DNA of 64,000 bases from Musa acuminata AAA Group (lineage: Eukaryota; Streptophyta; Magnoliopsida; Zingiberales; Musaceae), in contig NC_088331.1 of the NCBI RefSeq assembly GCF_036884655.1, positions 15,901,501 to 15,965,500 on the forward strand, given 5' to 3'. Shown piece after piece: positions 21,526 through 58,054 of the stretch. A program made the position numbers and the translations under genes. Position 1 is the stretch's first letter; the number at the start of each line of letters is the position of its first letter. Under the pieces are notes generated by a model. That model worked only from the letters and a program-made list of their open reading frames with translations. It made no database searches and was not told where the DNA came from.

Positions 21526-21585
21526 TGATCCCGGAATTCCGGGATTTGATCGTTTTGAGCTCCAAATTTGAATTGGGTTGGGGCC

Positions 21586-22505: not shown

Positions 22506-22638
22506 CTGTGATTCTGCTTTTATATCGAAATCGTTTTTTATCGGACGAACGCAGCTTTCGTTTTTAAAATCGCTGTAAGATTTCCGCTGCACTAATTCAC
22601 CCCCCCCCCCCCTCTTAGTGCTCTCGAATCCTAACAAT

Positions 22639-26387: not shown

Positions 26388-26401
26388 AAAAAGGGGGAGA
26401 T
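26388..26401 (+). other. Polypurine tract of element D
   Basis: AAAAAGGGGGAGAT directly abuts the 3' LTR start (TGTTGAATC) and primes plus-strand DNA synthesis. Confidence 0.85.
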
Positions 26402-31818: not shown

Positions 31819-31819
31819 G

Positions 31820-31831
31820 TGGTATCAGAGC
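31820..31831 (+). other. Primer-binding site of Angela-like element 1
   Basis: TGGTATCAGAGC lies one base after the LTR end and matches initiator-Met tRNA. Confidence 0.9.
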
Positions 31832-33703: not shown

Positions 33704-33727
33704 TTGCTACATCTTTATTTTCAGAAA

Positions 33728-35266: not shown

Positions 35267-37593
35267 TGAAGTACAAGTCCGAGGCCTTTGAGAAATTCAG
35301 AGAGTATAAGAATGAGGTGGAGAACCAGACTGGAAAGAGTATCAAAACTCTTCGATCAGATCGAGGAGGTGAGTACTTAAGTACAGAGTTTACTCACTTC
35401 CTCAAGGACCATGGGATATTATCCCAATGGACACCTCCTTATACACCTCAGCTCAATGGTGTCTCTAAAAGGAGAAATCGTACATTATTAGATATGGTAC
35501 GGTCCATGATGAGTTTCGCTGACCTACCCATCTCATTCTGGGGATATGCCCTAGAAACCGCAGCTTACCTTCTGAACAGAGTTCCAACTAAGTCGGTGGT
35601 GTCTACACCATATGAGATATGGAAAGGGAAGAAGCCTGATCTTAAAGTAGTTAAGATTTGGGGCTGCTCTACCCATGTTAAAAGACACAACCCCGATAAG
35701 TTAGAATCAAGGACAGGGCGATGTAAATTTGTGGGATACCCCAAGGAAACTTGTGGGTATTACTTCTATCATCTCGAGGACCAAAAGGTCTTTGTAGCTA
35801 AGAGAGCAGTGTTCCTTGAGAAGGAACACATTCTTGACGGAGACAGTGGGAGAATGATAGAATTGAGCGAGGTTGGAGAACCAAGCTCAAGCACCACTCT
35901 ACAGCCCGAGTCTGTTCAGGTATCTAATACACAAGTTTCAACTTTACGCAGGTCTGATAGAGTATCCCATCCTCCTGAGAGATATGTGGGACATATTAGA
36001 GCAGAGGATGCTGAGGATATTGATCCTCAGACCTACGAGGAGGCTATTATGAGTATAGACTCCGGGAAGTGGAAAGAAGCCATGAATTCTGAGATGGATT
36101 CTATGTACTCCAATAAGGTTTGGAACCTAGTTGATGCACCCGAAGGTATTGTACCCATCGGTTGCAAGTGGATCTTTAAGAAAAAGATCGGAGTAGATGG
36201 AAAGGTAGAGACCTATAAAGCAAGGCTAGTGGCTAAGGGGTATCGTCAAAGGCAAGGTGTTGACTACGACGAAACTTTCTCACCCGTAGCAATGCTAAAA
36301 TCCATCAGAATTCTATTGGCTATTGCAGCACACTATGATTATGAGATCTGGCAGATGGATGTGAAAACCGCATTCCTCAACGGGAACCTGGAGGAGGAGG
36401 TGTATATGATGCAACCTGAGGGATTCGTGTCCAAGAACTGCCTAGATAAGGTGTGTAGGTTGCTTAGATCCATTTATGGACTAAAGCAAGCTTCCCGAAG
36501 TTGGAACATAAGATTTGATGAGGCAATCAGATCTTATGACTTCGTTAAGAACGAAGATGAGCCTTGTGTATACAGAAAGGTAAGTGGGAGCGCTATTAGC
36601 TTTTTGGTGTTATATGTGGATGACATCCTCATCATTGAGAATGACATAGGAATGCTATCCACAGTAAAGGCTTGGTTATCTAGACACTTCTCCATGAAGG
36701 ACTTAGGAGAAGCATCTTATATCTTGGGGATTAGAATCTATAGAGATAGATCCAAAAGGATGCTTGGCTTGTCCCAGTCCAGGTACATAGAAACTATTGT
36801 CAAAAGGTTTGGCATGGAAAATTCCAAGAGAGGTCTCATACCGATGAGACATGGGATATCGCTTTCTACGAGTATGTCCCCAAAGACTCTAGAAGAAAGG
36901 GCGAACATGGATATGATACCTTATGCCTCAGCAATAGGGTCTATCATGTATGCCATGCTATGTACTAGGCCTGATATAGCGCATGCTCTGAGTGTCACGA
37001 GCAGGTATCAGGCGGATCCAGGCTTGGAGCACTGGAAAGCAGTAAAGTGTATCCTTAAGTACTTGAGAAGGACTAAGGATCTTTTACTAGTATATGGAGG
37101 TAATAGCCTTAAGGTTGAAGGCTACACTGACTCAAGTTTTCAGTCTGATGTCGATGATAGCAAGTCGAATTCAGGGTATGTGTACACCTTGAATGGAGGA
37201 GCAGTGTGCAGGAAGAGTTCCAAGCAAGATACCACTGCTGACTCGACCACAGAGGCGGAGTACATTGCTGCATTAGATGCAGCAAAGGAGGGAGTCTGGG
37301 TGAAGAAGTTCATCACAGATTTGGGAGTCGATACAGATAGCGACAAGTCGACTTCCTTATATTGCGACAACTATGGGGTGATTACTCAAATAAGGGAACC
37401 CGGGTCTTATCAGAAGCATGTTCTGAGGAGGTTCCACCTTATCAGAGAGATCGTGACCCGAGGAGATGTAGCAGTGGAAAGAGTTCCATCCGAAGATAAC
37501 ATTGCAGATCCACTAACAAAGCCATTGTCTCAGATTGTCTTTGAGCGTCACAGGGGTCTGATGGGGATCAGACACATAGGTGATTGGCTTTAG
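35185..37593 (+). pseudogene. pol: Copia integrase (inactive) - reverse transcriptase - RNase H
   Basis: An 802-codon open frame covers the rest of pol. The start shown is just the first in-frame ATG; the true protein would come from the gag frame. Integrase core: [27 protein letters not shown] (second catalytic Asp), PPYTPQLNG. The first catalytic Asp segment is deleted just upstream. The position 36 residues after the second Asp, where the catalytic Glu should be, is Lys (AAA at 35467-35469). RT: GCKWIFKKKIG, QMDVKTAFLNG, LYVDDIL. RNase H: YTDSSFQSD, STTEAEYIAA, LYCDNYG. RT and RNase H keep their catalytic acids and have no stops. The PPT follows within 15 bases of the stop. Confidence 0.85.
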
Positions 37594-37596
37594 GTC

Positions 37597-37607
37597 AAGT
37601 GGGAGAT
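37597..37607 (+). other. Polypurine tract of Angela-like element 1
   Basis: AAGTGGGAGAT lies immediately before the 3' LTR start TGCTAGTC. Confidence 0.75.
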
Positions 37608-39099
37608 TGCTAGTCATAAGTGCCCAGCAAGCCAATCACGTGAGTGATGGCACGTGTGACTTGATACAGAATCTTTTTGCTTATTATATTTTGGCGTATA
37701 TCACTTTATAACTATTGCATAAATGCATATATATTGTGATGTCCTTGGATTTGTGCAATGGGAATCGGATCGTGATGAGATCACGATAATGAGATCGATT
37801 CACCTTTAAACACATATCCTAAATAATCCCGGTCATAGGTTACTCGAGAGGGACATCGTGATAACCGGATAGACTGGTGTGCTGTATACCCATCCATATG
37901 ATGGATGCAGCTGGTCTCATAGCTGCTCGTGTAGGGACACTAGGGATACAGTACAGGTGCTCATTGGAGAATGAGTTCACTGATTGATCCGCTTACGGAA
38001 TGCTGGATGGTTGATGATGCCTTATTGTCAGACAACGATTCCGTAGTCCTAGTGGTGTATCTGGTTCTTAGACTTGAGACACTAAGGATGTCCTGTATGA
38101 GTGCTCCACTCTTTGATACCAGACTTATAGGTTTGGCTGTTCCCAGATCTAGTACAGCTGGTCATTGGGAGTGGTAGTCGACCTTACGAGGGCTATTGAG
38201 TGTCGATAGAGGATCATCCACTCTCGGTATCATGAGAGGAATATCCCATGTGTTCTTGCTCAGACAAATCCCTGGCCAGGGTCATTCGGGTTGAGAGAGA
38301 AAGAGTTCTCCGGGAGAATCCGATTAGAGCGATACTCGAGTAGAAACCGTATGGGTCTGACAGCACCATGCTCGATATACGGTCTCTGGGATATTAGATG
38401 GATGAGGGACTATAGGTACATGGTAACTGAGGACAGACAGGTCCAATGGATTGGATTCCCCTGTATCGTCTGGGGACTACGGCGTAGTGGCCTAGTACTT
38501 CCGTAGTCGATGAGTCGAGTGAATTATTACAGAGATAATAATTCACTGAGTTAGAAGGAGTTCTGACAGGTATGACTCACGGCCAGCTCGATATTGGGCC
38601 TAGAGGGTCACACACATATGGTAGGCATTGCGATGAGTAGAGGTTCGGATATGAGATATCCGACGGAGCCCTTGTCTTATTGGATGCAGATCCAATACCC
38701 ACTAGGGAAGGACCTATTAGGGTTTGACACGGGATCTCTATAAATATGAGGGATTCACAGCCTCATAGGCTAGAGTCTTTGCTTGCCCTTCCTATTCTCC
38801 TCTCCCTCTCCCCTCAGAGTAGGCCTGGAGTTTTGAGGAGCGTCGTCGCAACCCTGCTGTGTGGATCACCGCTAGAGAGGAGGACGCTTGACCTCCTTCA
38901 CCCTCTCCTAAGGATCTGCAAGGAAACAGGGATATACGATCTCCCTAGGTAACACAATCTTTATACGCAGTTTTGTGTTTTTTGCGGATTTTGCGCACCA
39001 ATCTTCGCACGACGATGAACATCTTTTTGGGAATCGGGGATTTTTGTTTTCTTGTTCTTCCGCTGCGCATATGATGTCGCCCCCTATGATTTCCCAACA
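37608..39099 (+). repeat. 3' LTR of Angela-like element 1 (1492 bp)
   Basis: It has the same length as the 5' LTR and about nine single-base differences by eye. It ends CCCAACA before target duplication CTAAC (39100-39104). Confidence 0.92.
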
Positions 39100-39104
39100 C
39101 TAAC

Positions 39105-40145
39105 TTAATTAGGGGCCAATTGGGCCCTTAACAAACCCAAATTGGGCCGAATGGAACAGCCCATTCGGACCCAGAATTCCTAGCCGGCGGTGGCATCGCC
39201 CAGGAGACTTGGTCTCCTAGGGATTCTGGGCGATGGTACCGCCCCTGTCAGGCAGTAGTACCACCGGTAGTTATTACTGCCAGTGGTGGTACCGCCCTTG
39301 TCAAGTGGTGGTACTGCCTGAGCTTGGTCGTCGAGCACTGTTATGCGATAGTATCGCCCAGACTGAGCGGTAGTACCGCTTAGTGATAGATGATAGGCGG
39401 TAATACCACCCAGTTATGGCGGTAGTACCGTCAGGACCCTAGAAATCCAGGAATGAACACTTTTAACCTCCATTTTTGAACTCATTGGGGCCTATAAAAA
39501 CCCTACCCTTTCCTGCATGAAAGGGCATGAAAAACTTGCTTTAATCTTGAGTCTTTGAGGCCTTAAAGTGTTGTAAAAGCTAGAGTTCTCCTCCTTCTTT
39601 CTTCTAAGTGTTAGAGATCATTTAAGAGATGAGTGAAACTTGTAAGGGTTGTCTCCTAAACCCGTCAAAAGGAGAAAAACTGTAAAAGGGTGATTGGTCT
39701 TCGCCTATTGAAGGAAGGCCTCTAGTGGATGTTAGTGACTTAATTGGAGGAGGAAGCCGATAGTGGATGTATGTTATGTTGACCAAACTACTCTAAAACC
39801 TCAGTTTACATTTACTTTGAACATCTTTCCTTTATAGCAAACAACCTCTCCTCCTTACTGTACTTTAAATACGTCTACATTCACTTTGGCATAAAACATT
39901 TTTCGAGATTGGTTTTCTATGAAGACTTTATGAAATATACATTTTTGTGATTTATACTATTGCAAATCACCTTAATCTTCTCTTGCATTTTCACTTTAGA
40001 CTTCAAGCTCAAATTCCTTCCGAAACGAATTGAGTTGAATCGACTTTAATCGAAACAAGGTTTTTGAAATCGTGAAAGTTTTTCATTGTACTAATTCACC
40101 CCCCAACCCCCCCCCCCCCCCCTTAGTGCGCTCTTAATCCTAACA
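39105..40145 (+). repeat. 5' LTR of element A, piece 2
   Basis: It resumes the A LTR after the Angela-like guest (TTAATTAGGGGCCAATTGGGCCC). It contains a palindrome-rich segment with GGCGGTAGTACC-type units (39180-39440), a TATA box TATAAAAA at 39493-39500, a poly-C tract at about 40100-40122 broken by AA, and the end ATCCTAACA. Confidence 0.8.
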
Positions 40146-40147
40146 AT

Positions 40148-40159
40148 TTATATCAGAGC
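40148..40159 (+). other. Mutated primer-binding site of element A
   Basis: TTATATCAGAGC differs from TGGTATCAGAGC at its first bases. The position after the LTR end is right. Confidence 0.6.
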
Positions 40160-40195
40160 AAGGTTCACTCTTAGTTGGATTAAAACCCAAGAGAG

Positions 40196-41752
40196 ATGAC
40201 ATTTGTCGGGAACCAAGAGGGTCACTCAATTACACGTCTGCCTATGTTTAATGGGACAGATTATACATATTAGAAGACTCGAATAAGGATCTTCCTTATT
40301 TCTATGGATTTTGAGCTTTAGAACGTTGTTGAAAATGGTATTCAAAAGTCTTCTCTTCTAATGAACGATTGGAATGAGTTGGAGAAGAAGACTTTCATGT
40401 TAAATGCCAAGGCTATGAATGCCTTGTTTTGTTCACTAGATAAAAACAAGTTCAATCGTGTTTCGATTTGTGAAATGACTTTTGATATTTGGCACATATT
40501 AGAAGTGACTCATGAAGGCATGAGTAGAGTGAAAGAGTCAAAAATTAACCTTTTAGTATATTCTTATGAACTATTTCGAATGAAACCAAGTGAGACCATA
40601 GGAGACATGTACACCCATTTTACGGATGACGTCAATGGCCTGAAAGGACTCGGTAAAGGTTTTTCGGATTTCGAGCTCGCTAATAAAGTTTTAAGATCCC
40701 TTCCAAAGAGTTGGGACCCTAAAGTCATGGTCATTCAAGAGGCCAAAGATTTAAACAACTTTCCTCTTGAAGAATTAATTGGGTCACTAATGACCTACGA
40801 AATGACATGCAAAGCTCATGAAGAGCATGAGGACACCCTTCCAAAGAACAGGAAGGATATGATACTTAGAATTCAAGAAGACCACTTAAGAGAAAACTCA
40901 AGTGATGAGGACTTTGACGATGACTTGACACTTTTAACAAGAAAATTTAAAAAATTCATTAAAAGAAATAAATTTAAAAATGACACTAAAAATAAATTTA
41001 AACCCAAGAAAGACTAAGTAATTTACTACGAATGCAAGAAGCCGAGATACTATAAAAGAGAATGTCCCCAAGCCAAGAAGAGAACACCAAAGAAAAAGGT
41101 ACTCAAAGCAACATGGGATGACTCAAGCACATCTAAAGAAGAGGAGTCTAACACTGAGCAAGTTGCTCATTATGCACTAATGGCCATTGGAGAGGAGGTA
41201 TCTAATTCAATTGATGCAAATTTATCATTGGATGAATTATTTAATATTTTTCATTATTTATTTGATGAATGCAGAACAATTAATAGAAAATATAAATTGT
41301 TAAAAAAGAAGCATGATTCTCTTATTAGTAATTTTGATAAATTAAAAATTAAGTATAATGATAATTTAGCTCTATGTACGAAATGCCATGATTTAGAAAT
41401 AATTCAAAAGGAGAACTTGCTACTCACGGATACCTTAAAGAAATTTGAGATTGGTAGCAAGTCATTGAACATGATCCTTACCGATAAGAGTCACGTTCAC
41501 AAAAGAAGTGGAATCAGATTTGTGAGAAGCTCTCACCAAAATCCAACCACCTTCATTAAAGGCCCTATCTTGTATATTTTGTACCAAAACAAATGCAACT
41601 TTTATTGCAAATATGGACATAGAGCTTATCATTGTCCATTCAAGAAGGTTAGTCCAAACAAATTGATTTGGGTTCCTAAAGGAACTATAAAGAATTTCAT
41701 GCAACATGATAAGCAATTTAGAACGGTTTTTGAGGCACCCGAGGTCAATTAG
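40196..41752 (+). pseudogene. gag: Sirevirus-like gag of element A (three in-frame stops)
   Basis: A single frame of 519 codons has stops at 40271 (TAG), 40319 (TAG) and 41015 (TAA) but no frameshift. N-terminal PMFNGTDYTY, capsid-like ELEKKTFMLNAKAMNALF and ETIGDMYTHFTDDVNGLKGL. A mutated first knuckle follows (YECKKPRYYKRECPQ; the His is lost). Then an acidic/coiled segment and a second C-x3-C-x4-H-x4-C knuckle (CNFYCKYGHRAYHC), and a VSPNKLIWVPKGT tail. In Sirevirus polyproteins this tail precedes protease, but here the frame ends and no protease follows. Element B inserted 70 bases downstream. Confidence 0.75.
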
Positions 41753-41826
41753 GTACCTAAAAATTATCATCTTTTTTAAAAACGTATACCATCACAAGCT
41801 AGAAGTAAGAGATGATATCTTGCTTT

Positions 41827-43299
41827 TGTTGAATCTCAGATTTTGATGATGACGTCAATTATCATTTATTATCTAATCTATATGTTGAGATAAGTGTGCA
41901 GGATTAACTATGATGAAAGTAAGATATGCAGCAGGAGTTATGCCGGAGTCAAGACTATGATCACGTTGGGGGTTCGAGAATTCGACGGAAGTTCGGACGG
42001 TCGTCGGAGGTTCTACGGGAACAAATCTGAGAAGTCCAGGAGCTTGCCAAAGAAGCTCGTCGGAACTTGCCAAGTGGATCGTCGCAAGTCCAGGAGTTTG
42101 CCGGAAGTCCACAGGAGAATCACCGAGGGTTCATCGGATGATCGACGGAAGCTCGTCGGAATAAGCGATTGACGCACCGGAGCAAGTTGCAGTAAATGTC
42201 TTAAGAAATTCGTAGTTAGTACGATGATTAAGTTAGAAATGGGAGGTGATCCCATTAACTTAATCTTGGGGCAATTGGGCCAAATGGATCAGCCCATTAA
42301 GACTCAGATTACTTGGCCAGAGGTGGCACTGCCTGGGTCGACGGTGGCACCGCCCAGGGCTCAGTCTTTGAGCTATGGCTAGGTGGTGCAACCGCTTCTG
42401 ACAGAGGTGCAACCGCTTGAGCTCAGTCTCCGATCTCTGGCAGGATGTGCAACCGCCCCTAATAAGCGGTGGCACCGCCTAGAGGCTCAGTCTTCGAGCT
42501 CTGCCAAGCAGTGCAACCGCCCCAGTCAAGCGGTGCAACCACCAGACCCCGAAATTCCGGGAGATGACAATTTTGAGCTCGGAATTCAAACTAGTTTGGG
42601 GCCTATAAATACCCCACCCTTTTAGCAATGAAAGGGCAATAAAAAACCACTGAAACCCTGATCTTACTCTGTGATTTTTAGATCTCAAAAGTGTTGTATG
42701 AGTTAAAAGTTCTCCTTCCTCTTTTCTTCCAAGTTTTGATCTGTCAAGAGAGGAAAGAAAATTCTATAAGGGTTGTCTCCTAAGCCCGTCAAAAGGAGTG
42801 AAATTGTAAAAAGGTGGTTGGCCTTCGCCTATTGAAGGAAGGTCTCTAGTGGACGTCGGTGACCTCGTCGGTGGAGGAAGCCAAAAGTGGATGTAGGTCA
42901 AGATTGACCGAACCACTCTAAATCTCGGTTTGCATTTACTTTGAGCATATTATCTTTATTGCAAACCTCCTCAATAGCTTACTGCCTTCTGTGCATTTAC
43001 GATCGTGTTTCAAAGTTTAGTATTTTCTAAATCGGCGTTCAGACGTAAATCAGTTTTATCGTATGGACATTATATTTTAGTTTACACTTACATTCTAATT
43101 TCCATCATAACTGCAAACTACCTTCATAGACTTGCTTTAACTACAACTTGCTTGATCACAAGTTAAAGTGATTTACGAATCGGCTTTTCTACCGAAATCG
43201 CTCTTATCGTACGAACGCAGTTTTAATCGTCGAAAGTTTTCCGCTGCACTAATTCACCCCCCCCCCCCCCCCCCCCTCTTAGTGCTCTTGATCCTAACA
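41827..43299 (+). repeat. 5' LTR of element B (1473 bp)
   Basis: Starts TGTTGAATCTCAG and ends ATCCTAACA. TATA box at 42604-42611 in GGGGCCTATAAATACCCC. Palindromes with GGTGGCACCGCC and GGTGCAACCGC lie at 42310-42545. A poly-C run of about 20 lies at 43257-43276. Confidence 0.88.
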
Positions 43300-43301
43300 A
43301 T

Positions 43302-43313
43302 TGGTATCAGAGC
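43302..43313 (+). other. Primer-binding site of element B
   Basis: TGGTATCAGAGC lies two bases after the LTR end. Confidence 0.9.
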
Positions 43314-43349
43314 GGGGTTAACTCTCAAATGGATTAAAACCCAAGAGAG

Positions 43350-44930
43350 ATGGCATACGTCGGAAACCAAGAGGGCCATTCTATTACACGTCCACCCATG
43401 TTCAATGGGACAAACTACACCTATTGGAAGACCCGAATGAGGATCTTCCTTATTTCAATGGATTTTGAACTTTAGAATCTTGTCGAAAGTGGATTTTCAA
43501 AGTCTTCTCTTCTAATGATCGATTGGAATGAATTGGAGAAGAAGACTTTCGCTCTTAATGCAAAGGCTATGAATGCCTTATTTTGTGCGCTTCATAAAAA
43601 TGAGTTTAATCGTGTTTTAGTTTGTGAAACCGCTTTTGATATTTGGCATACACTCGAAGTAACTCACGAAGGCACAAGTAGAGTGAAAGAGTCAAAAATT
43701 AATCTTTTGATACACTCTTTTGAACTTTTCCGAATGAAACCGAGCGAGACTATTGGCGACATGTACACCCATTTCACGGATGTCGTCAATGGTCTAAAAG
43801 GACTCGGCAAAAGTTTTTTGGATTTTGAGCTCGTAAATAAGATTCTAAGATCCCTTCTTAAGAATTAGGACCCTAAAGTTACTGCTATTCAAGAGGCTAA
43901 AGATTTAAACAACTTCCCTCTTGAAGAACTAATCGGGTCATTAATGACTTATGAAATGACATGCAAGGCTCATGTAGAGCAAAAAGACATCCTTCCAAAG
44001 AACAGGAAGGATATGACACTTAGAACTTTAGATGACCACTTGAGAGAAAACTCAAGTGATGAGGACTATGACGATGACTTGACACTTCTAACAAGGAAAT
44101 TCAAAAAATTCATTAAGAGAAACAAGTTTAAAAATGACAAAAAATAAACTTGAACCCAAAAAGGACCAAGTTATTTGCTACGAGTGCAAAAAGCCGGGAC
44201 ACTACAAAAGTGATTGTCCCCAAGCCAAGAAGAGAACATTAAAGAAGAAGGCACTCAAAGTAACGTGGGATGACTCGAACGCATCCGAAGAAGAGGAGTC
44301 CAACACCGAGCAAGTTGCTCATTACGCCTTAATGGCCATCGGAGAGGAGATAACAAATTTAATTGATGCAGATTTATCATTTGATGAGTTATTAAATGCA
44401 TTCTATGACTTATTTGATGAATGCAAGATTATTAGTAGAAAATATAAATTACTAAAAAAGGAGCATGATAGTCTTACTTATAATTTCGATAAGTTAAAAA
44501 CTAAATATCATGATAGTTTAGGTTCTTGTATAAAATGTCATGATCTAGAAACTATCCAAAAGGAAAACTTGCTACTTAAGGACACCTTGAAGAAATTCGA
44601 GGTTAGTAGCAATTCTTTGAACATGATCCTTACAAACAAGGGTCACGTTCCCAAAAGAAGTGGAATCGGATTTGTGAGAAATCCTCACCAAAATCCAACC
44701 ACCTTCATAAAAGGCCCATCCTACATGTTCGACACCAAAGTAAATGCAACTTTTGTTGCAAACATGGACACAAAACATATTATTGTCCATTCAAGAAAAT
44801 TAGTCCGAACAAATTAATTTGGGTTCCTAAAGGAACCATGATAAACTCTATGTAACATGACAAACAATGTAGATTAGTTTTTGAGGCACCCAAAAGTAAA
44901 TGGGTACCTAAAAATTATCTTGTCTTGTAG
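43350..44930 (+). pseudogene. gag: Sirevirus-like gag of element B (stops and frameshifts)
   Basis: It starts MAYVGNQEGHSITRPP at 43350. In-frame stops at 43473 and 43866 (TAG); a frameshift near 44134-44147; another near 44735 that throws the second knuckle out of frame. The first knuckle is intact: CYECKKPGHYKSDC. Capsid-like region as in A (ETIGDMYTHFTDVVNGLKGL). The frame beyond 44817 can be followed to a WVPK-type tail ending near 44930. No protease follows. It is strongly similar to the A and D gags. Confidence 0.75.
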
Positions 44931-45822
44931 AAACGTAAACCATCCCAAGCTGGGAGCAAGAAATAATATCCTGCTCTTTGGATTCTCGATATTCATAACC
45001 CGAGATCCAAAAAGAACACGTGATGCTCCCTAGCCTAAATAACAAAAAGAGGATTAAAAAATTAAAATTACAAGAGCAATACAGATATAATCCTATTTGA
45101 TCCCTCAGAATTGGAAACCCATGATTCTACCTTCACATATCCTTTGGTTTTCCGAACCCATCAAATTGGCTTGTTTGTTACTTTCAAATCCAACTATATC
45201 ATGAACTTACATCTTGTAAGCAAGTTTGTCATGGACTTGTAAAACTTACAAACTTGGATAACTTGTCATAAACATGCATACGACATTTGAAGTAGAGTAT
45301 GCACGTCACTAGATCTATCTTGATCGTACAAAATTTCTCATTTTAAAATGAAAATTCTTACGTAATTACTTAAGTAAAGTTGACTGCTACATAAATAAAA
45401 TTTTTTCTCAAGTCAAAAACATTCAAATCAGACCACACAATAGTCAAAACGAGTGCTCACTGCCTGCAGGCGGTGGCATCGCCCTAGCTGGAGGTAGCAC
45501 CTCCGGCTATCACGTATTGCAAGTGGTTGCACCACCCAGCCAGCGGTGCAACCGCCCGCAATCCTGCCCCCTTTTAAACCAAGCTAGGGTCGGTGGTGGA
45601 ACCGACCCCAACTCACTCCCTTCCCCTCTTTACTCTTCCAATGCTTCTCCACCTCCATTTCTCCCCTCTTAGCATCTCAAATACTTCTCATTTCGAAGCA
45701 AAAGATCAACAATCTCTCCTTTTCTTGAAGATCTCACTTAAGGTATTCTCTAAGAAACCTCTAAATTCTGTTTTTGATTCATTTACTCTTGCTTATTACT
45801 ATCCTCTTAAATAATAGTAGTT
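44931..45822 (+). other. Spacer and 5' region of the captured ORF in element B
   Basis: To about 45430 the DNA is AT-rich and non-coding and matches A from 50425. From 45463 to 45600 it carries GGCGGTGGCATCGCC and GGTGCAACCGCC palindromes like the LTR U3, a TTTTAAACC box and a GGTCGGTGGTGGAACCGACC palindrome, followed by a CT-rich leader. The leader has a plausible 5' splice site (AAG before GTATTC, near 45740). A has the same arrangement at 50950-51276. This suggests the captured unit arrived with its own promoter/leader. Confidence 0.45.
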
Positions 45823-47604
45823 ATGTGCTCTAGAAGATCCTCAAGGGACAAAGGGAAGAGGAGATTAGTGGAAGACTTTGATCTTACCCTTTTCGATTCA
45901 ACATATCATGCTAAAAATTTTTCCTCTTTTAAATTTAGAAGTGTCAATAAGGGAAAACATGTAGATTTAGATGAACTAAGAGACTTAGAGATAATCCAAT
46001 GGTTTGCAAACCTAGATCTACTCCATATTTTACAAATTAGTGAACCCATCTATCCAAGATTTGTTAGACTGTTTAACAACAATTTACAAGTAGATGAAGA
46101 AGAAAGAATGTCTACCTATCTCTTAGGACAACACATCTCCATTACGGATAAATTCATTTGTGACATGATAGGCATTCTCGTAAAAAATAGAAGACTTTAT
46201 TTTAGAGGATCGTGGGTCAATGAAATAGTTTGGACAACATATGTTGAAGCCTTAGGAACAATTTTCGGTAATCCCAACTTAGTGATAGTTTCTAAAAGCC
46301 GTGAACATCTACTACCACTAAACACTAAAGTACTTCATCATATCCTAACTAGCATAATTCTCCCTAAACAATACCATCATGATGAAGTAAGTCAAATGGA
46401 TGTTAAAAGTGCTTTTCTTAACGACTTTATTTCCGAAGAAGTTTATGTTGAACAACCTTCTGGATTTTGAAATAATAGCCTCCCTAATCATATGTTTAAA
46501 TTAACTAAAGCTCTCTATGGTTTAAAACAAGCCCCTAGGGCTTGGTATGAGAGACTTAGTTCTTTTCTTATTGAAAATAATTTCACAAAAGGCAAGGTTG
46601 ATACTACATTGTTTATCAAGAATTTTGAAAATAATTTTCTTATTGTTCGGATTTATGTTGATGATATTTTCTTCGATTCTATAAATGAATCTCTTTGTGA
46701 ATCTTTTGCTAAAACCATGAGTCTCAAATTTGAAATGAGTTTGATGGGAGAATTAACCTTTTTCTTAGGCTTACTAATTAAGCAACTAAGCAATGACATC
46801 TTTATTAGTCAAACTAAATATGCTTTAAATCTACTGAAAATATTTAATATGGATAGCTCAAAAGCTATTAACACCCCTATGAGCACCTCCACTAAGTTAG
46901 AAGTTGATGAGAGTGGAGAAAGCTTCGATAAAAAAACTTATAGGGGTATGATAGGAAGTTTACTTTACCTCACTGTAACTAGGCCAGATATCATGTTCAG
47001 TGTAGGACTTTGTGTTAGGTTTCAATCGAACCCTAAGATATCTCATATCAAAGCGGTTAAAAGAATACTTATATATCTTAAAGGTACCACAAATCTAGGA
47101 TTATAGTATCCAAAATTCGAAAACTTTGAGTTAATTGCTTATGCTGATGCGGATTTTGTTGGGTGTAGACTAGATAGAAAAAGCTCATCAAGAACATGTC
47201 AATTTTTGGGACATTCCCTTGTTTCCTGGTCATCTAAGAAACAAAACTCAGTTGCACTATCAACAACCGAAGCTGAATATATTGCAGCTAGTGTATGCTG
47301 TGCACAAGTTGTGTGGATGAAAAATACCTTAGAAGATTATAAAGTCTATCTTAAAAATATTCCCATTAAATGTGATAACACGAGTGCAATATGTTTAACA
47401 AAAAATCCCATTCAACACTCAAGAACAAAACATATTGATATTAGACATCACTTTATATGAGATCATGTTACTAATCATGATGTAATCATAGAGTTCATAG
47501 ATACTAAGCATCAACTAGCTGATATTTTTATAAAACCTCTAAGTGAAGAACAATTTGATTTCATAAGAAGAGAACTAGGAATGTTGATGTGTCCGAATGC
47601 ATAA
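45823..47604 (+). pseudogene. Captured plant transposon-protein-like ORF fused in frame to RT/RNase H (element B)
   Basis: One reading frame of 593 codons is broken only by stops at 46468, 47104 and 47458. Residues 1-190: basic start (MCSRRSSRDKGKRRL), then segments such as RLFNNNLQVDEEERMSTYL and HISITDKFICDMIGI, and HHILTSIILPKQYHH. This pattern (R-x-F-N/Y-N-L...D...L-G) resembles the plant 'putative transposon protein' domain (Pfam Transposase_32-like; assignment from memory). At SQMDVKSAFL (about 46394) it changes to copia RT motif A, then KALYGLKQAPRAWYERL, YVDDI, TRPDIMFSV, and RNase H ADADFVG, STTEAEYIAA, CDNTSAI. RT lacks its fingers and integrase is absent. A shares only the first part, so the RT was added at HHDEVSQ by recombination. 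Confidence 0.7.
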
Positions 47605-48875
47605 ACTTGTTAAAATTATTATTCGGACTTTATTGATTGAATGATCAAATCACTTAATTACCATTACATGCCTAAAATAACATGTTGGAAATTAATACAA
47701 AAATTTCCATAACAATGAGCATGTCTTCATGATTGTATAGTTTTGTCCGATTGCATGAAAGTGTTAAATTAAATTTTCAGTTCCAATCGGATATCATGAA
47801 TACATTATTCTCTTTTGGACTTAATAAACATATGCCACATATAGTTTGATTCACATAATTAATTTTTGACAAATAGAATCATCTAGCAAATGCATATCTT
47901 TTAGACTTATCATGTGAAAAATATTCTCTTCGAGAAATAGATTTGATGATTCCTTCTTATAAAAGGAAGATATTTTTATGTGCAAGGATTTGATTCACAT
48001 AAATATCCTAATCCTTGTAAAGCATGCCTTAATATCGTATCGATTTGAACTACACAAATGACTTTCCTCCTTCATGCAAAAAGATAATAACAAATAAAAA
48101 GGAAGAAGTTTTCACTCTATAATCTTCATGTTATGTTTTTCTTGAGATGTTTGTATAATTTATATCCTATCACTCTATATAGATAAATGACATGAACCTA
48201 CTTATGGCATCGCATGTATATTTAAAAGTTATTTATATCGTTCTCCTTTTTTTTTTATGACAAAGGGGGAGAAATATATAAATTGATATTATAAATGTCA
48301 TATTATGTTGAAAAAAGCTGATAACTATGATTATGTCATATTATGTTGAAAAAAAGCTAAATAAATTGATGTTATATATGAATTGATGCTATGATTATGC
48401 CATGCTTGCATCAACGAAAATATATGAATTAATGATAACTATGATTGCCATATTAGCAATATGCCATGTTTGCATCATGTTAAGATATCAAGAACTTGCA
48501 TCGTAGTCCTACGTGTTGATATCTTACTATGTGATGAAATGCTATGATTGCTAAAATACTTGAAATGTGTGCATCATGTTAAGATATCAAAATCTTACTT
48601 CAAAATTTTACATGTTGATATCTTACCATATGATGAATTGCTATCATTACCATAATTCACATTTGAAATTTAAAAATGGATGTCAAGCCTTGACATAATA
48701 CATTATTTTCAGAGAGATACATCATGATGGGAATCATGATGGGAGTATTGATAAGGTAACTTATCAATATGTCTCTTGAATTCAAAGGCTTCGAATTCAA
48801 GAATGACTTATCTCAATTATGGCACATAGATAGGGGGAGTTAAGGTTAACTCCGTTATCAATTGATTGTCATCAT
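47605..48875 (+). other. Non-coding 3' region of element B with internal PPT
   Basis: AT-rich and without ORFs. An mPPT, CAAAGGGGGAGAAA, lies at 48261-48274 after a T-run. A 60-base phrase with TGTTAAGATATCAA is repeated near 48475-48530 and 48575-48630. Confidence 0.65.
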
Positions 48876-48890
48876 AAAAAAGGGGGAGAT
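48876..48890 (+). other. Polypurine tract of element B
   Basis: AAAAAAGGGGGAGAT directly precedes the 3' LTR. Confidence 0.85.
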
Positions 48891-50419
48891 TGTTGAATCT
48901 CGAATTTTGATGATGACGTCAATTGTCATTTGTTATCTAATCCATATGTTGAGATAAGTGTGTAGGATTAATTACAATGAAAGTAAGACATGTAGTAGGA
49001 GTTGTGCCGGAGTCAAGACTATGATCACGTTGGGGGTTCGAGAATTCGACGGAAGTTCGGATGGTCGTCGGAAGTTCTGCGGGAACAAATCCGATAAGTC
49101 CAGGAGCTGGCCAAAGAAGCTCGTCGGAACTTGCCAAGTGGATCGTCGCAAGTCCAGGAGTTTGCCGGAAGTCCGCAGGAGCATCACCGAGGGTTCATCG
49201 GATGATCGACGGAAGCTCGCCGGAAGAAGCGATTGATGCACCAGAGCAAGTTGTAGTAAATGTCTTAAAAAATTCGTAGTTAGCACGATGATTAAGTTAG
49301 AAATGGGAGGTGATCCAATTAACTTAATCTTGGGGCAATTGGGCCCTTGATAGACCCAAATTGGGCCGAATGGATTAGCCCATTCAGACCCAGATTACTT
49401 GGCCAGAGGTGGCACCGCCTAGGGCTTAGTCTCTAAGCTCTGGCTGGGCAGTGCAACCGCCTTTGACAGAGGTGCAACTGCTTGAGCTCGGTCTCCGAGC
49501 TCTGGCTGGGCGGTGCAATCGCCCTAGTCAGGTAGTGGCACCACCTGAGCTCGGTCTCCGAGCTCTGGCAGGAGGTGCAACCGCCCCTGACAAGCGGTGG
49601 CACCACCCATAGGCTCAGTCTTCGAGCTCTGCCAGGCGATGCAACCGCCTCAGTCAGGCGGTGCAATCGCTAGACCTCGGAATTCCGAGAGATGACAGTT
49701 TTGAGCTCAGAATTCAAACTGGTTTGGGGCCTATAAATACCCCACCCTTTCAGTAATGAAAGGGCAACCAAAAACCACTGAAATCCTGATCTTACTCTGT
49801 GATTTTTAGAGCTCAAAAGTGTTGTATGAGTTAAAAGTTCTCCTTCCTCTTTTCTTCCAAGTTTTGATCTATCAAGAGAGGAAAGAAAATTCTGTAAGGG
49901 TTGTCTGCTAAGCCCGTTAAAAGGAGTGAAACTGTAAAAAGGTGGTTGGCCTTCGCCTATTGAAGGAAGGCCTCTAGTGGACGTCAGAGACCTCGTCGGT
50001 GGAGGAAGCCAAAAGTGGATGTAGGTCAAGATTGACCGAACCATTCTAAATCTCGGTTTGCATTTACTTTGAGCATATTATCTTTATTGCAAACCTCCTC
50101 AATAGCTTACTACCTTCTGCACATTTACAATCATGTTTCAAAGTTCAGTATTTTCCAAATCGGCGTTTAGACGTAAATCAGTTTTATCGTACGAACATCA
50201 TATTTCAGTTTACGTTGACATTCTAATTTCCATCATAACTGCAAACTGCCTTCATAGACTTTCTTTAACTGCATCTTGGTTGATCACAAGTTAAAATGAT
50301 TTACGAATCGGCTTTTCTACCGAAATTGCTCTTATCGTACGAACGTAATTTTAATCATCGAAAGTTTTCCGTTGCACTAATTCACCCCCCCCCCCCTCTT
50401 AGTGTTCTTGATCCTAATA
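48891..50419 (+). repeat. 3' LTR of element B (1529 bp)
   Basis: It starts TGTTGAATCTCGAATTTTG and ends ATCCTAATA (the terminal CA has mutated to TA). TATA box at 49732-49739. It is longer than the 5' LTR mainly by extra palindromic units in 49390-49680. Confidence 0.85.
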
Positions 50420-50424
50420 GCTTT

Positions 50425-51276
50425 TGGGGTGCTCAAGATTTATGACTAGAGATCCAAAATGACTCATAACGCTCTCTAGATAAAATGACAAAAAGAGGAT
50501 TAGTAGAATTAAAACTATCAATTACAAAATGATACATATATTCTATATGTTAATGATGTAATCTTATGTGATAAACACTTAAGTTTGATCCCCCAAAATT
50601 TTGAAACTTGTAAACTCTTATGCATAAATTCCCCTTCACATATCCTCCGGATTTTTGAATTTTTTCAGATACATTCCTCCCTCAATTTTTTCGGATCCAA
50701 CTATATCTTATTCATGAACTTACGGCTTGCGATGCTTGTATGATGAGTCATAAACATATTGAAAATATATAAGCTCTATATGACATTTGAGTAGAGTATG
50801 TATTTCACATGATCGATCATGAATATACGATATTTCTCATCTTGTGATGTGAATTTTTACATGATTATGTAATTAGGGTTGTGTGCTCCACAAACAAACA
50901 CTCCCTTTAAATTGAAATCACCCACATCAGCCCACACACCTTTGTGAGCAGCTCTCATTGCCTGTAGGCGATGGCTGCCGCTAACTGTCACGGGTGGTAG
51001 GCGGTTGCACCGCCCATAATCTACCCCCTTTTAAAACTGAGCTAGGGCTAGCAGTAGAACTGACCCCATCTCTTTTTCCACCCTCCTTTGTAGCTCTAAA
51101 CTCTCCTTCAACTCCATTCTCTCCCTCTAGCTACCCAAAACTCTCTATTTTCTACAAGATCAAGGATCAATTCTACATCTTCTTGAAGATCTCAACTAAG
51201 GTATTCTCTAAAAGGCTTTGATTTCTCTTTTGTATCATCTACTCTTGCTCATTATTTATCTTCATAATAGCAGTAT
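50425..51276 (+). other. Element A spacer and 5' region of its captured ORF
   Basis: Element A resumes here after B. It matches 44960-45822 of B: AGATCCAAAA, the ACAAAAAGAGGATTA word, the GGTAGGCGGTTGCACCGCC palindrome near 50995-51020, TTTTAAAAC and GAGCTAGGGCTAG. No gag-protease continuation is seen. Confidence 0.55.
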
Positions 51277-52312
51277 TTATAGGTTCTAGAAGATCCTCTA
51301 GGGACAAAGGGAAGAGGAGATTAGAAGAAAACTATGATTCCACACTTTTTGATTCAAATCAATATGCCCTAAAATTTATATCCATAGAATTTAGAAATAT
51401 TCATAAGGAAAAATATATTGATTTAGATGAACTAAGTGATTTAGAACCTATTCAATAGTTTACAAATCTAGACCTTTTCCCAATCCTACAAATGAGTGAA
51501 CCTATCTACCTTAAACTTGTTAGGTTATTTTATAACATTCTACATGTAGATGAAGAAGAAAGGGTGTCTACCTATCTTTCAGGACGTCATATATCCATTA
51601 CGGATAGATCCATTTACGACATCATAGGCATCTCGGTAAAAGAAAGAGGTTGTTACTTTAGAGGACAATGGGATGATGAAACAATTGGGACCATGTATAT
51701 TGATGCCTTAGGAATAATTTTTGGCAATCCCAACTTAATGATAATTCCAAAAAGCTGGGAACATTTATTACCATTAAGCACCAAAATACTTCATCACATC
51801 TTGATTAGTATCATTCTCCCGAAACAATACCATCATGATGAAGTAAGTCAAATAGAACTAAGTACCATGTATTGGATCAGGAAAGGATATAACAACTGTT
51901 TTGGCTACCTTATCCAATAAAACATGATAGAAATATCTAAAAAGGACATGATGCTTCCATATAGTAGCATAATCATTAGAATACTTCATGCCTACGATAT
52001 TACAATTCCACCCGCGAAGAAGTTATAAAGCTAGATAGATTTAGTATCATAAATAAAAATCTACTTCGACGGATGAGATGTATATTTAGAAATAGTATGT
52101 GGGTTAGAATGCCGAGAAGAACCGATCCCCCTCAACCTGAACTAGAACCGAAAACATCAATCTTTAGGGGTAATCAATATCCTCCAACTGGTCCCTTTGA
52201 GGAATCACATATAGTAGAGCAAGCACCTTCTTCATCTATCGAAGATATAGGGATTCGGATGGATCATTTTGAACAAAGACAAGATCGACTCGAACAACGC
52301 CAAGATTAAATC
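51277..52312 (+). pseudogene. Captured plant transposon-protein-like ORF of element A (full length, broken)
   Basis: The same ORF as in B but continuing past the point where B switches to RT. Best open part 51492-51920: RLFYNILHVDEEERVSTYL, HISITDRSIYDIIGI, HHILISIILPKQYHHDEVSQ, then STMYWIRKGYNNCF, which is the native continuation. After a stop and a frame change, 52073-52309 encodes RMRCIFRNSMWVRMPRR, a proline-rich linker, and MDHFEQRQDRLEQRQD, a coiled-coil-like C terminus. The start corresponding to the B ATG is mutated, and a stop lies near 51460. It shows the ancestral, complete form of about 345 codons. It occupies the place of pol between gag and the 3' non-coding region. Confidence 0.6.
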
Positions 52313-53833
52313 TTAACTGAGCTACAGTAGATTCACCGACAGTTTGACACCTTATTTAGACATTTTAACTTTCCACCACCTAAATAAGCATGTGTATGTA
52401 TTTTGAAAAAATGAACATAATCCTCCTTGTTATGTTGTAATGCTATGTTGTGTACCTTAATATTGTAAAATGCTACTCACTTTGATGATCGTAATGCTAT
52501 GCTTTTATGCTACTTATTTTGATAAGTAAAATTCTGTGCTAACTATCTTGATAGTTAAATTCTAAGCATACTTTAAATTAATGAGTATTTACGACTTGAT
52601 ATATTTAACTATTGGTATCTACGACTTGATGTATTATTTCATGAGTATTTACGAAGTTAGGAATGTTAGTGTGCCCGGATGCATGAATTTGTTAAATTTT
52701 GGTTTCGGACTTTCTTGATTCCTTGATCACTCATTTAAATTTTGTGCTGTGAATTTTACATGATGATAAGGTTGTGTGCTTCAATAACATGTTTACTTGA
52801 ATGTTGAAAATTTTGTACCTTGATGCTAAAATTTTTCATGATGATGAACATGTTTATCTTCATGATTGTAATTGAAAAGCTATAATAAAACATTGTCCGA
52901 ATGCATAATTTTGTTGTATTTCTCTTCTGGATTTAATGTATTTTTTGAATAGAGCTTTCATGAGCTTATGCTATATCAAATTTATTTCATATCCATGCTC
53001 CATCACTAAATGATTTTTGATACATGGAATTAATTGACAAATGCATCTCTCATGGACTTATCTTTTATAAATTTTTTTATTAAAAAATGAATTTGATGTA
53101 ATGATTCTTTCACATGAATTCCTTCTTGATGAAGGAAGATTTTTTGAGATGAACACTTGCAAGAATTTAATTTCACATGTATATCTTGATCCTTCTGAAA
53201 AATGAAGCATAATGAAACTCTCTTATCGATCTTAACTTCATTTAAAGTTGGTTCTCAATGGCTTAACCTTCCTTACTTTTCTCCTTCGTGTAAAGGTTTG
53301 ATGATAAGTAAAAAGAAAGAAGTTAATGAATGATATCAAGTCATGAATGCTTGAAAAATAATTTGTATGAATTTCTTTACAAGTTGAAAAATGACATGAA
53401 TTTTTACCACACTTGCATTTATTGTTGAATCGTTCTCCTTTTTGTTGATGATAAAGGGGGAGAAATATATGGTAAATTTATGATAGAATGAATTGCTATA
53501 CATTTGAAATGTTTGCATTATGATAAGATATCTAGGGTTTAACTTGTAATTTTACAAAGTTGATATCTTGCTATATGATGAAATTGCTATGATTGCTATC
53601 CTTCATATTTGAAATATAAAACTTGAAAATGGATGTCATACCTTGACATCATTTTCAGAAAGTTACATCATGATAGGAATCATGATGGGGGTATTGATAA
53701 GTTTAAATGAATTTAACTTATCAATATGTCTCTTGAATTCAAAGGCTTTGAATTCAAGAATGACTTTTCTCAAGTATGGCATATAGATAGAGGGAGTTAA
53801 GGTTAACACCATCATCAATTGATTGACATCATA
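52313..53833 (+). other. Non-coding 3' region of element A with internal PPT
   Basis: AT-rich with no ORF. Short phrases repeat (for example TGAGTATTTACGA near 52580-52660). An mPPT, AAAGGGGGAGAAAT, lies at 53453-53466 after TTTTTGTTGATGAT. Confidence 0.65.
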
Positions 53834-53847
53834 AAAAAGGGAGAGAT
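53834..53847 (+). other. Polypurine tract of element A
   Basis: AAAAAGGGAGAGAT abuts the 3' LTR; one G is mutated relative to B and D. Confidence 0.75.
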
Positions 53848-55102
53848 TGTTGAATCTCAAATTTTGATGATGAAGTCAATTGTTATTTGTTTATCTAATC
53901 TATATGTTGATAAAAGTGTGCAGGATTAACTACGATGGCAGTAAGACATGCAGCAGGTGTTGAGCCAGAGTCAAGACCAAAATCATGTTGGGAGTTTGAG
54001 AGTTCGTCGGAAGTTCTGTGGGAACCAGCCGAGAAGTCCAGGGGCTTGCCATAGAAACTCATTGCGAACTCACCAAGAAGATCGTTGCGAAGTCCAAGAG
54101 CTTGCTGGGAGTCCGTCGGAGCATCGCCGAGAGTTCGTCGGATATTCACCCGAAGTTCGCCGGAAGCTCGTCGGAAGAAGCGATTGACACACCGGAACAT
54201 GAATTGTAGAATGATGTCTTAATTGTCATATTTAGAGTTTAGATTAGGTTAGGATTGGGAGGTAATCCCACTAACTTAATTAGGAGCCAACTAGGCCCTT
54301 AACAGACCCAAATTGAGCCGAATGGAACAACCCATTCGGACCCAGAATTCCTGGCCGGTGGTGACACCGCCCAGGAGACTTGGTCTCCCAGGGATTCTAG
54401 GCAGTGGTACCACCCTTGTCAAGCGGTAGTATCGTTGGCAGTTACTACTGCCAATGGTGGTACCACCCCTATCAGGCGATGGTACCGTTGGAGCTCAGTC
54501 TTCGAGCACTGTCAAGCGATAGTACCGCCCAGATTGAGCAATAGTACCGCTCAGTGATAGATGACAGGCGGTAGTACCACCCAGTTATGGCTGTGCTACT
54601 ACCAGGACCCCGAAAATCCAAAAATAGACACTTTTAGGCTCCATTTTTGAACTCATTGGTGCATATAAAAACCCCATCCTTTCATGCATGAATGGGCACG
54701 AAAAACTTGCTTTAATCTTGAGTCATTGAGGCCTTAAAGTGTTGTAAAAGCTAGAGTTCTCCTCCTTTCTTCTAAGTGTTGAGATCATTCAAGAGAGGAG
54801 TGAAACTTGTAAGGGTTATCTCCTAAGCCCGTCAAAAGGATAAAAGATGTAAAAGGGTGGTTGGCCTTCGCCTATTAAAGGAAGGCCTCTAGTGGACACC
54901 GACGACCTCGTCGAAGGAGGAAGCTGATAATGGATGTAGGTCACATTGATTGAACCACTTTAAAATCTCGGTTTGCATTTACTTTGAGCATCTTTCCTTT
55001 ATAGCAAACTACCTCTCCTCCTTACTGTACTTTAAATACGTCTACATTCGCTTTAAAGTAAAACATCTTCCGAAATCGGCTTTCTACGAAGACTTTATGA
55101 AA
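53848..55102 (+). repeat. 3' LTR of element A, piece 1
   Basis: It starts TGTTGAATCTCAAATTTTG and has the same order as the 5' LTR, with a palindromic segment at 54355-54605 and a TATA box TATAAAAA at 54664-54671. It is interrupted near 55102 by element C, with filler DNA at the joint, and resumes at 60614. Confidence 0.8.
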
Positions 55103-55159
55103 TCTAGACAGTTATTACAGTTATTACAGTTATGAAATCTATGAAGACTTTACGAAATC
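55103..55159. other. Filler DNA at the truncated end of element C
   Basis: A mosaic of short copies: TCTAGACAGTTATTACA also occurs in the C 5' LTR (about 60266-60282), TTATTACAG is doubled, and ATGAAATCTATGAAGACTTT resembles the adjacent A LTR. This is what templated end-joining repair leaves behind. Confidence 0.6.
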
Positions 55160-55547
55160 ATAGTTAATCCTGCACATGCAAGCCAAAACTCTACTCCGAT
55201 CTAGACAATTATTACAATGCGAATTGACATTCTGTTGTCCGGCACGTCATTGGTTAGTGCTTCATCCGATTCTTCAGCGCATCATCCTCTCTTGCGGCTT
55301 GTTGCCCAATCGGCGATTGACCTCCACAACCCCAATATCCTTGGCGCAATTCCGCTCTCCTTGGCCCGATGCCTGACGTCCGAAGCCTTCTGCCATCCAA
55401 TATCCTGACGTGATATCCTCTAGCGCAACGTCAATTCCTCCTGCGTCAACTATCTAATCCTGATCGAGTAGACCTGCATCACTCAAAATGCAGTTAACCA
55501 TCTAAACACAATCAATTAGTTTCATCATCAAAATCCGAGATTCAACA
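55160..55547 (-). repeat. Truncated 3' LTR of element C (U3 start only, 388 bp)
   Basis: On the minus strand it starts TGTTGAATCTCGG at 55547 and follows the 5' LTR to GTGCAGGATTAACTAT, then stops. The counterpart in the 5' LTR is 60226-60613. Palindromes, TATA box and U5 are lost. Confidence 0.8.
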
Positions 55548-55562
55548 ATCTCCCCCTTTTTG
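55548..55562 (-). other. Polypurine tract of element C
   Basis: ATCTCCCCCTTTTTG on plus is the purine tract of the minus strand next to the LTR start. Similar internal tracts lie at 55765-55775 and 56342-56355. Confidence 0.8.
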
Positions 55563-58054
55563 ATGATGACAACTAATTGATGACTAACGGAGTTAACCTA
55601 AACTCCCCAGAGTTTAACCAAACTCCCCCTATCAATATGCCATTGATAGAACACTTGGATTATCCCAAATCCAAGTAACATTCATCACATGTTATGAAAA
55701 AATATTTAAACCATCATGCAAATATATAAAATATTCAATTCAATGCATGAAGTCATCAATATACTTCTCCCCCTATGTCATCAACAAAATGGAGAAGTAG
55801 CTCTAGCTATTTTAAAAGATATGCAAGTTTTTACAACATGAAGCTAGATTTTCATCACAACATATAAGCACAAAAGCATAACAAGATTCTTAAGTTCAAT
55901 CATGGCAATTCAACACTTGCTTCTTGTGCAAGATTGTACTTTGCTTTTCTTTGCAAGTAACAATATTTATGATGTTTGATATAGCAAATTTTATATCATG
56001 CAAGGTAGCAAACTTTTGTGATGTTCAAGATAGTAAGTTCTTTCAACGAAATGATCGAGCTAAGAAATTTTTACGATATGCAAGTTTTACTACATAAAAG
56101 CTAGTAAAAATTTCGAAAGCAAATGCAAGATAGCTTTCTTGTGTAAGCTCATGATTCTTGCTTCCTATTGCAATGTGCAAGTTATAAGTTTTGCTTCTTG
56201 AAATAGGCAAGATAGCTCATTTGCTTGAGATTACAAGATAGCATTTCTTGCTTTCGAGATGAGCAAACTAATAAGTTTTGCCCCTTTTTGCGATGTGTAC
56301 GTTTGTAATTTTTTGCTTCCATTGTCTTGTGCAAGCTAGCTATCTCCCCCTTTGTCATTGTCAAAAAGAAGGAAAGACCCATTACATCAATTATGACAAA
56401 GGTAAGTATCAATCTCATTTCTGCATCATTATATTTTCAAATTAAAACATGCACTATTTCAAAAACCTTATATTTCATTCATGCGTGATATTGAATAAAT
56501 CAATCAACATTATGAGCATATCATACATGATATATCTTTTTGGCAATAACTCATAGTATTTTAAATCATGATTTACATCATATGCAATACATCATATCAT
56601 AATTAGAAAGCACAAGTATTGTATGCATCATTGCCAATCATAGATGTTTCATAATGGTATCAATTTTGTCAAATTATATCCTACCATGCATGATCAAATC
56701 TTCTCCCTATTTTATCATTGAAAACAAGAAAGAAGTAGGGAAGAGCATAAAAGTGTAAAGTATTTCAATTATTTCAAGGCATTTGTATCATAGATATAAA
56801 GAAATCATATCATCAAAGATAAGACCATTTGAATACCAAAAGACATGATTCATTTTATCAAATCTCTTCCTTTTATAAATAACAAAAATTGTAGGTGTAC
56901 AAAGAAGAGATTGTGATTAAAAAAGAATCTCAAGTAGTAAATCCAAGAAATCAAGATCATAATTTGAATACAAACTCATTCAAATTTAAATTGTCAAATT
57001 CATCAAAATCTCAACATTACTTTTAAGAGATTCATAATGGTATACATAGATTTATCATAATAATCAAGGGAAAATCTTAGGAGATCATGATATAGATAAA
57101 ATTCATTCAATCTTATAAGAGAACAAGATATTAATTCAAGCATATAAAATTTCTCAATTCATTATGAATCATAAAAAGAATTATGGTTCCGAAAACTCAT
57201 GATTCATTTAGAAAAATTTTCTCTTTAGTGCACGATAAGAAGAAATATAGCAATGATACCAATCATAATTCATTTGGATAGTAGATGCTAAAAAGGAACA
57301 TTGAGGATACAAGATCTTGATTTTTATAGAGTAAATCTGAAGTTATAAATATCAAAAAATCAAGATAAAGCTCATTTAAATTCAAATCATCAAATCAAAA
57401 TCATTTTCAAGATATTCATAAAAAGATGATAAAATAGATTCATCAAACCAAGAATTTTCAAGAAAAATACTTTTATCTATTTAGTTATTTCATATAAGCA
57501 TGCCTTTGTCCTTTTTGTGCCAATATATATATATATATATATATATATCATCAATCATTTAGGATCGAAAAATAAATTTCTTCATAAAAACCATCAAGAT
57601 CATTATGTATAACTTTTAAAATCTCATGCATAAAATGGTATCAAAACATTTAATATTTTCATTCCATCATTTTGAATTGGTTTTATTGAACATAATTTTG
57701 AATGATTCTTATAGATAACTAAAACTTCTTTAGTTTTAATTTATATGATTGACTTTATCTTAGCATGCTCAAATTTTGTTCATATGTCAAAACCATATAT
57801 CATGTTTGAAAACCAAAGATAAGGTTAAAAAAAAAATCATCAAGCCTTCCATTCAAAAGCCATGCATCGTCATTGAAAATCAATATGGAAATCGTCAAAA
57901 TATATATTCTTACTTCTCAAGCACATACATAAGATTAATCTTACTAGGTGTATAAGCATTAGATTTATATCTAACATTTTATTGCATTAACATAACACAT
58001 GCAATTTTCAAGAAAATTAATCCTAAACTAAATTAAAAATGACTCATGAAAGTA
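55563..58054 (-). other. Non-coding part of element C interior
   Basis: This is the reverse-complement counterpart of the D region 23698-26387, with the same degenerate phrases (CAAGCTAGC, TTGCTTCTTG) at 55800-56370. A (TA)n run of about 30 bases lies at 57519-57548. There is no ORF of note. Confidence 0.65.

Follow-up and report, generated by a model that had tools for sequence, protein, structure and literature searches.

In wheat, the elements RLG_Sabrina, RLG_WHAM and RLG_Wilma have been described as a 'cooperative complex' in which pol-less LTR retrotransposons replicate with an autonomous partner, and some of the pol-less elements carry unique coding segments for which the authors propose a possible supply of protein (PMC9744471). 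The PF20167 domain has been reported from an accessory ORF in Athila, an LTR retrotransposon (PMC11728184). In banana, SIRE/Maximus is given as the family with the largest share of Musa assemblies (18-24%; PMC11754795). A literature search directed at extra ORFs in pol-less elements found nothing on point. How, then, does a banana element in which a PF20167 domain runs in frame into reverse transcriptase (RT) compare with these systems?

The element in question, B, lies in a 64,000-nucleotide stretch of Musa acuminata AAA Group (NC_088331.1, positions 15,901,501 to 15,965,500 of the forward strand), referred to below as the window, on contig C5 of the genome searched. Three elements are nested here. 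The oldest, A, is interrupted twice, by the young element C within its 5' LTR and by B within its internal part; all parts of A and B described below read on the + strand. What remains of A includes a gag region split by B (40140-41826, start approximate), an accessory ORF with its native C terminus, broken into three pieces (51273-52309), and the 3' LTR (53848-55109, ends approximate). Element C (30327-39099), sitting in the 5' LTR of A, has LTRs that are 99.4% alike and CTAAC on both sides; the haplotype represented by contig C27 is without it, and A's 5' LTR is unbroken there. Two blocks that are 97% alike (20253-22638 and 26400-28789) contain the same LTR motif cluster and are perhaps the LTRs of another related element.

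B is a complete LTR-to-LTR element (41827-50419) nested in the related element A. Between its 5' LTR (41827-43299, with a ~64-bp tandem repeat at 42342-42535) and its 3' LTR (48891-50419, with a ~62-bp tandem repeat at 49406-49663) lie a decayed copia-type gag region (43300-45009), assigned through the Pfam match of the gag of the relative L012 (PF14223, as expected of a copia gag) and alike in partners with and without pol; a non-coding segment (45010-45822) with no match in pol-bearing relatives and with the motif GGTRSNACC at 45493, 45525, 45545 and 45595; the 5' part of the PF20167 (Transposase_32) accessory ORF (45823-46400), cut off by the junction; RT from about motif A onwards and RNase H, both of the pol-bearing type (46392-47604); and a 3' untranslated region (47605-48890) with a purine-rich tract immediately 5' of the LTR. 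In keeping with Ty1/copia elements, the LTRs are bordered by a 5-bp target-site duplication (TSD), GCTTT, at 41822-41826 and 50420-50424, and a TSD was also present in three of five sister copies checked. The two LTRs are 87% identical with gaps counted and 91.4% over aligned bases, and their distance of 0.093 corresponds to about 3.6 My at 1.3e-8, the rate used for wheat (PMC9744471). A run of 20 C near the end of the 5' LTR (43257-43276) is shorter in the 3' LTR.

An earlier, sequence-only reading of this locus had described one fused frame interrupted by nothing but three stop codons, and this holds: the frame at 45823-47604 passes from the PF20167 domain through copia RT into RNase H, and its only internal stops are codons 216, 428 and 546. 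Pfam assigned PF20167 weakly to 45823-46395 (E 0.0012, 19.2 bits against a cut-off of 45) and RVT_2 to 46396-46467 (E 1e-05) and 46471-47103 (E 2.3e-32); no Pfam family matched 47107-47457, which aligns with the RNase H of pol-bearing relatives. B aligns with ORF-bearing copies as far as 46400 (46395 in one copy) and with pol-bearing copies from 46392-46394 onwards. At this point the ORF-bearing sisters read GAAGTAAGTCAAATGGAATTAGG and the pol-bearing relatives, for example, TTTCAAATGGATGTTAAAAG, and B switches within TCAAATGGA (46392-46400), a junction word common to both parents. The earlier reading also placed the junction at a shared word, but the one it named, GTAAGTCAAAT, occurs in A and B and not in the RT parent. 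A likewise carries this domain, ending in its native C terminus, in a different frame and with breaks of its own.

How often did this fusion arise? A 38-base junction pattern with up to three mismatches was found at two places in the 1.53-Gb genome, its reversed control at none, although this pattern could miss a junction copy that has diverged to the extent of B's two LTRs, in which the mismatches might number more than three. Because the second place, on contig C27, is collinear with window positions 39098-55822 at 99.0-99.5%, it is read as an allele, the same insertion in another haplotype, and each of the three stops that break the fused frame occurs in both haplotypes. A search with 201 bases, which would place a diverged junction copy above half matches, recovered no further junction copy among the 40 scored of 2951 candidates. 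As far as these searches reach, B would thus represent a single event at one locus in two haplotypes, and a propagated chimeric lineage was rejected, with the proviso that diverged copies could be missed. Save for the allele, then, no other junction copy was found, an outcome that had been taken in advance as a sign of chance nested insertion; such an insertion is nonetheless excluded by the single LTR pair and the GCTTT duplication around B.

The relatives of B fall into two partner types. Six pol-bearing elements (in L019, L020, L021, L022, L023 and L025) have gag followed by PR-INT and, where the stretch reaches, RT-RH, and no accessory ORF was detected inside them, some being only partly covered and L023 having stretches left out of the sequence. 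One of these, in L020, belongs to a related subfamily; its pol can be read through without a break and, searched as two pieces, shows the Pfam domains to be expected, PF13976 and PF00665 lying upstream of PF07727 in the copia order, with integrase before RT. The ORF-bearing partner is arranged as gag, non-coding segment, PF20167 ORF, short tail and 3' region, and no PR-INT was detected between gag and ORF in 10 elements (L012, L014, L015, L016, L018, L027, X, Y, A and B, the last two checked through their contig C27 copies). Apart from the replaced part, most 250-base bins of either partner are 92-98% like B; single bins are lower, and the 3' bin 48300 is only 72-85% like B in all partners. 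In gag, dS within the B family is 0.05-0.12 between partners and 0.06-0.08 among four ORF-bearing copies, whereas the ORF differs between subfamilies by a dS of 0.28-1.24; this contrast suggests that the ORF lineages are old and that the gag of the B family is close to that of its pol-bearing partner, the comparison covering the B family, with the pol-bearing partners of A, X and Y outside the sample. The whole family probably belongs to SIRE/Maximus (Sirevirus).

The junction of B is not the only place where ORF-side copies resume pol-type sequence. Among the 34 ORF-side matches within the 40 scored of 2951 candidates, 30 were classified: 17 resume at 47581, seven at 46905, three at 47496, one (L047) at about 47062, and two otherwise, one of these apparently cut by an LTR insertion and the other without further match. 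The join to the 3' region falls at about 47414 in element X, at about 47503 in element Y and, as judged by eye, near the RNase H end in A. Since A joins there, 47581 is regarded as an old arrangement and the remaining ones as tails that were regained, which agrees with the earlier suggestion that the A-like structure is the older one. The 46905 class (L013, L016, L017, L029, L031, L036 and L039) consists of the native ORF and tail followed by the C-terminal part of RT and RNase H, and occupies seven places on seven contigs, which reduce to five groups should contigs 11 apart be homologues. Such contigs (for example C8, C19 and C30) are similar in length, and the match offsets of one ORF copy are identical on C5, C16 and C27 (L043, L042 and L040), so the banana genome is probably triploid; the 46905-class copies on C9 and C31 may be alleles. 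In L016rc, the sole copy of this class tested for a TSD of its own, none was found. L047 (C8:23974273-23975873, junction at about 326) is a second, independent in-frame fusion, in which the PF20167 ORF continues via AGAATACTTA into the last part of RT and then RNase H, again with stops in the fused frame. The word shared at the junction has 10 bases in L047, nine in B and eight in the 46905 class (TGATGAGA), against only about three at the 47496 junction, and a random breakpoint pair shares a word of at least eight bases with a frequency of 2.3e-4. In the copies sampled, RT/RNase H sequence has been regained repeatedly.

Taken together, B is probably a recombinant copia-type LTR retrotransposon, formed between a pol-less and a pol-bearing partner by a template switch in reverse transcription, and the earlier view of a gag-plus-ORF parent joined at a short shared word to RT/RNase H of a pol-bearing relative is borne out. 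Both parental structures are directly seen: ORF copies that keep the native C terminus, and copies that have gag-PR-INT-RT-RH but no ORF. The pol-less partner would have contributed the 5' part of B, i.e. the LTR, gag, the non-coding segment and the N-terminal part of the PF20167 ORF, and the pol-bearing partner of the same family the RT/RNase H part. We infer that the switch took place while two co-packaged RNAs were being reverse-transcribed: the minus strand would have been begun on the pol-bearing RNA, its synthesis would have crossed over to the ORF-bearing RNA at TCAAATGGA, and the recombinant product would then have integrated into A. The fused frame, now broken, would be a by-product.

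A scar like that of B would, however, also be expected from a deletion in an ancestor with ORF plus pol, or from gene conversion of an inserted copy. The former supposes an ancestral gag-ORF-pol element of which B and the other classes are different internal deletions, and it is attractive in that every junction runs from the ORF side to pol, several of them at a short shared word, just as a deletion between repeats would leave it. Yet the ancestor it needs is not evident in either partner, given that no PR-INT was detected between gag and ORF in the 10 elements checked and no ORF in the six, partly covered, pol-bearing ones. Moreover, copies joining at 47581 carry extra tail sequence missing from the 46905 class, so the 46905 class is not their parent. 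Microhomology deletion is consequently unlikely. Slightly less likely still is that gene conversion or ectopic DNA recombination placed pol sequence into a gag-plus-ORF copy already inserted: the TSD and LTRs would survive such an event, B is old, and a second tract edge would not be visible, since in the 3' part one partner is about as similar as the other, but the seven places of the 46905 class on seven contigs make it seem that recombinants replicate. Finally, selection for a chimeric gene that tethers the accessory domain to RT/RNase H is a highly improbable account of the fused frame, since the in-frame joins of both B and L047 amount to a one-in-nine chance, B was found at a single locus, with three stops in both haplotypes, and L047 has stops too.

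What is the domain that the pol-less partner brings? The PF20167 cut-off of 45 bits is passed by unbroken relatives (L028 and L015, 59.3 each; L013, 48.7), and neither the piece of B, truncated at the junction, nor the one tested from A (33.2 bits) reaches it. A wide profile retrieved 632 relatives at E <= 0.01 among 7997 candidates scored, and all of the best 120 of them contain PF20167. Distant named relatives of the ORF are labelled 'Putative plant transposon protein', the nearest relatives are without a functional name, and the high-scoring ones with a species name are from Musa. One predicted protein of Musa acuminata var. zebrina, P0013, aligns with the ORF along 21% of the query, has PF17801 and, by eye, gag-like sequence, and is perhaps an annotation spanning a retroelement. 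The description of the domain as a captured plant ORF was not upheld, as PF20167 has been reported from an LTR retrotransposon (PMC11728184); a host gene captured by this element was accordingly rejected, although the domain may have an ancient host origin.

Between subfamilies, dN/dS of the ORF is 0.12-0.23 in six bootstrapped pairs (95% intervals 0.08-0.35) and 0.12-0.26 across fifteen pairs, compared with 0.82-1.37 in two wrong frames of the ORF as a control; gag gives 0.13-0.20 in the bootstrapped and 0.10-0.19 in the subfamily-pair comparison. Selection is not evident in close pairs within the B family (0.28-0.95), as expected from the decay of copies after insertion. By this measure the ORF of the pol-less partner is kept by selection, and its product is probably an accessory factor acting in trans for the family. 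The N terminus of the protein is basic, and a coiled coil is predicted at its C terminus. Could it be envelope-like, as proposed for extra ORFs of plant LTR elements? The Athila accessory ORF with PF20167 lends some weight to this thought, for such ORFs may resemble envelope proteins (PMC11728184), but a membrane segment was found in none of six proteins (best 19-residue hydropathy 1.1-1.3), and the basic N terminus and coiled coil are more in keeping with a soluble protein, perhaps a nuclear one; an envelope-like gene is quite improbable and was rejected.

The predicted fold of the ORF protein may resemble that of VANC, a plant transposon anti-silencing protein. In the fold search, no other family was clearly named and none was thereby ruled out; Foldseek alone returned nothing informative, a literature search for the VANC21 structure found nothing on point, two profile searches of solved structures listed no VANC21 chain, and DUF1985 was absent from the 24 families listed, PF20167 being found in 29 of 29 members. 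If the protein binds DNA, what might it recognize? The LTR tandem repeats, with a period of 62-64, contain the palindromic words GGTGCAACC and GGTGGCACC, which are found also just 5' of the accessory ORF. The motif GGTRSNACC was spotted by eye in the LTR repeats and counted afterwards, which makes the following a post hoc test: nine fetched elements (six with ORF, three with pol) have 4-13 sites per LTR and 0-4 in the segment upstream of the ORF (0 in L015, where it is mostly missing), and never one in the counted gag, ORF, pol and 3' stretches, simple shuffles giving 0.0-0.2. The distribution in X and Y is alike. The window holds 48 sites, none before 21116; among those assigned, B has five in its 5' LTR, four in the upstream segment and three in its 3' LTR, the upstream segment of A has one and element C one. 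A weak similarity links the upstream segment with the LTR repeats (best E 0.001), so this sharing may reflect common descent.

It is conceivable, and offered here as a tentative model only, that the family is a two-part retrotransposon, in which one RNA supplies pol and the other a VANC-like, DNA-binding anti-silencing PF20167 protein that would bind GGTRSNACC and lift silencing of the family. Its targets would be the palindromic repeats in both partners' LTRs and upstream of the ORF, and frequent switching between the two RNAs would keep their ends alike and yield chimeras such as B. If this were true, anti-silencing would reach from Mu-like DNA transposons to LTR elements. Whether the extra ORFs of Tork and Athila exist and affect methylation was described as open in a 2026 paper (PMC12844716), and the question would become directly testable through the possible fold link, PF20167 occurring in Athila too. 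B alone is a curiosity; the family, with a selected accessory protein in its pol-less partners, matters more, and the unexpected part lies in that ORF and its possible VANC-like nature.

Compared with VANC of the VANDAL transposons of Arabidopsis, the banana ORF has neither a sequence match nor DUF1985, and it resides in an LTR element, with a putative function, rather than in a Mu-like DNA transposon (PMC5735166, PMC10398659). With the sunflower Athila accessory ORF it shares the Pfam family and its place in an LTR retrotransposon, but Athila is Ty3/gypsy, whereas the ORF described here belongs to pol-less copia-type partners (PMC11728184). The chimeric nature of B recalls the complex LTR elements of Triticeae, whose chimeric daughters are ascribed to abnormal template switching; there, two parents were fused into a large complex element, and B has a normal size and layout (PMC1950507). 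With its exact junction at one locus in two haplotypes, B falls within this known way of making LTR-element chimeras, and there is no evidence for the non-standard element type once suggested. Another parallel is the wheat complex, in which pol-less LTR elements likewise replicate with an autonomous partner. Those elements are, however, Ty3/gypsy with minimal common sequence, whereas the partners here are Ty1/copia, are still 92-98% like B in most bins of gag and the 3' part, and appear to be still recombining (PMC9744471).
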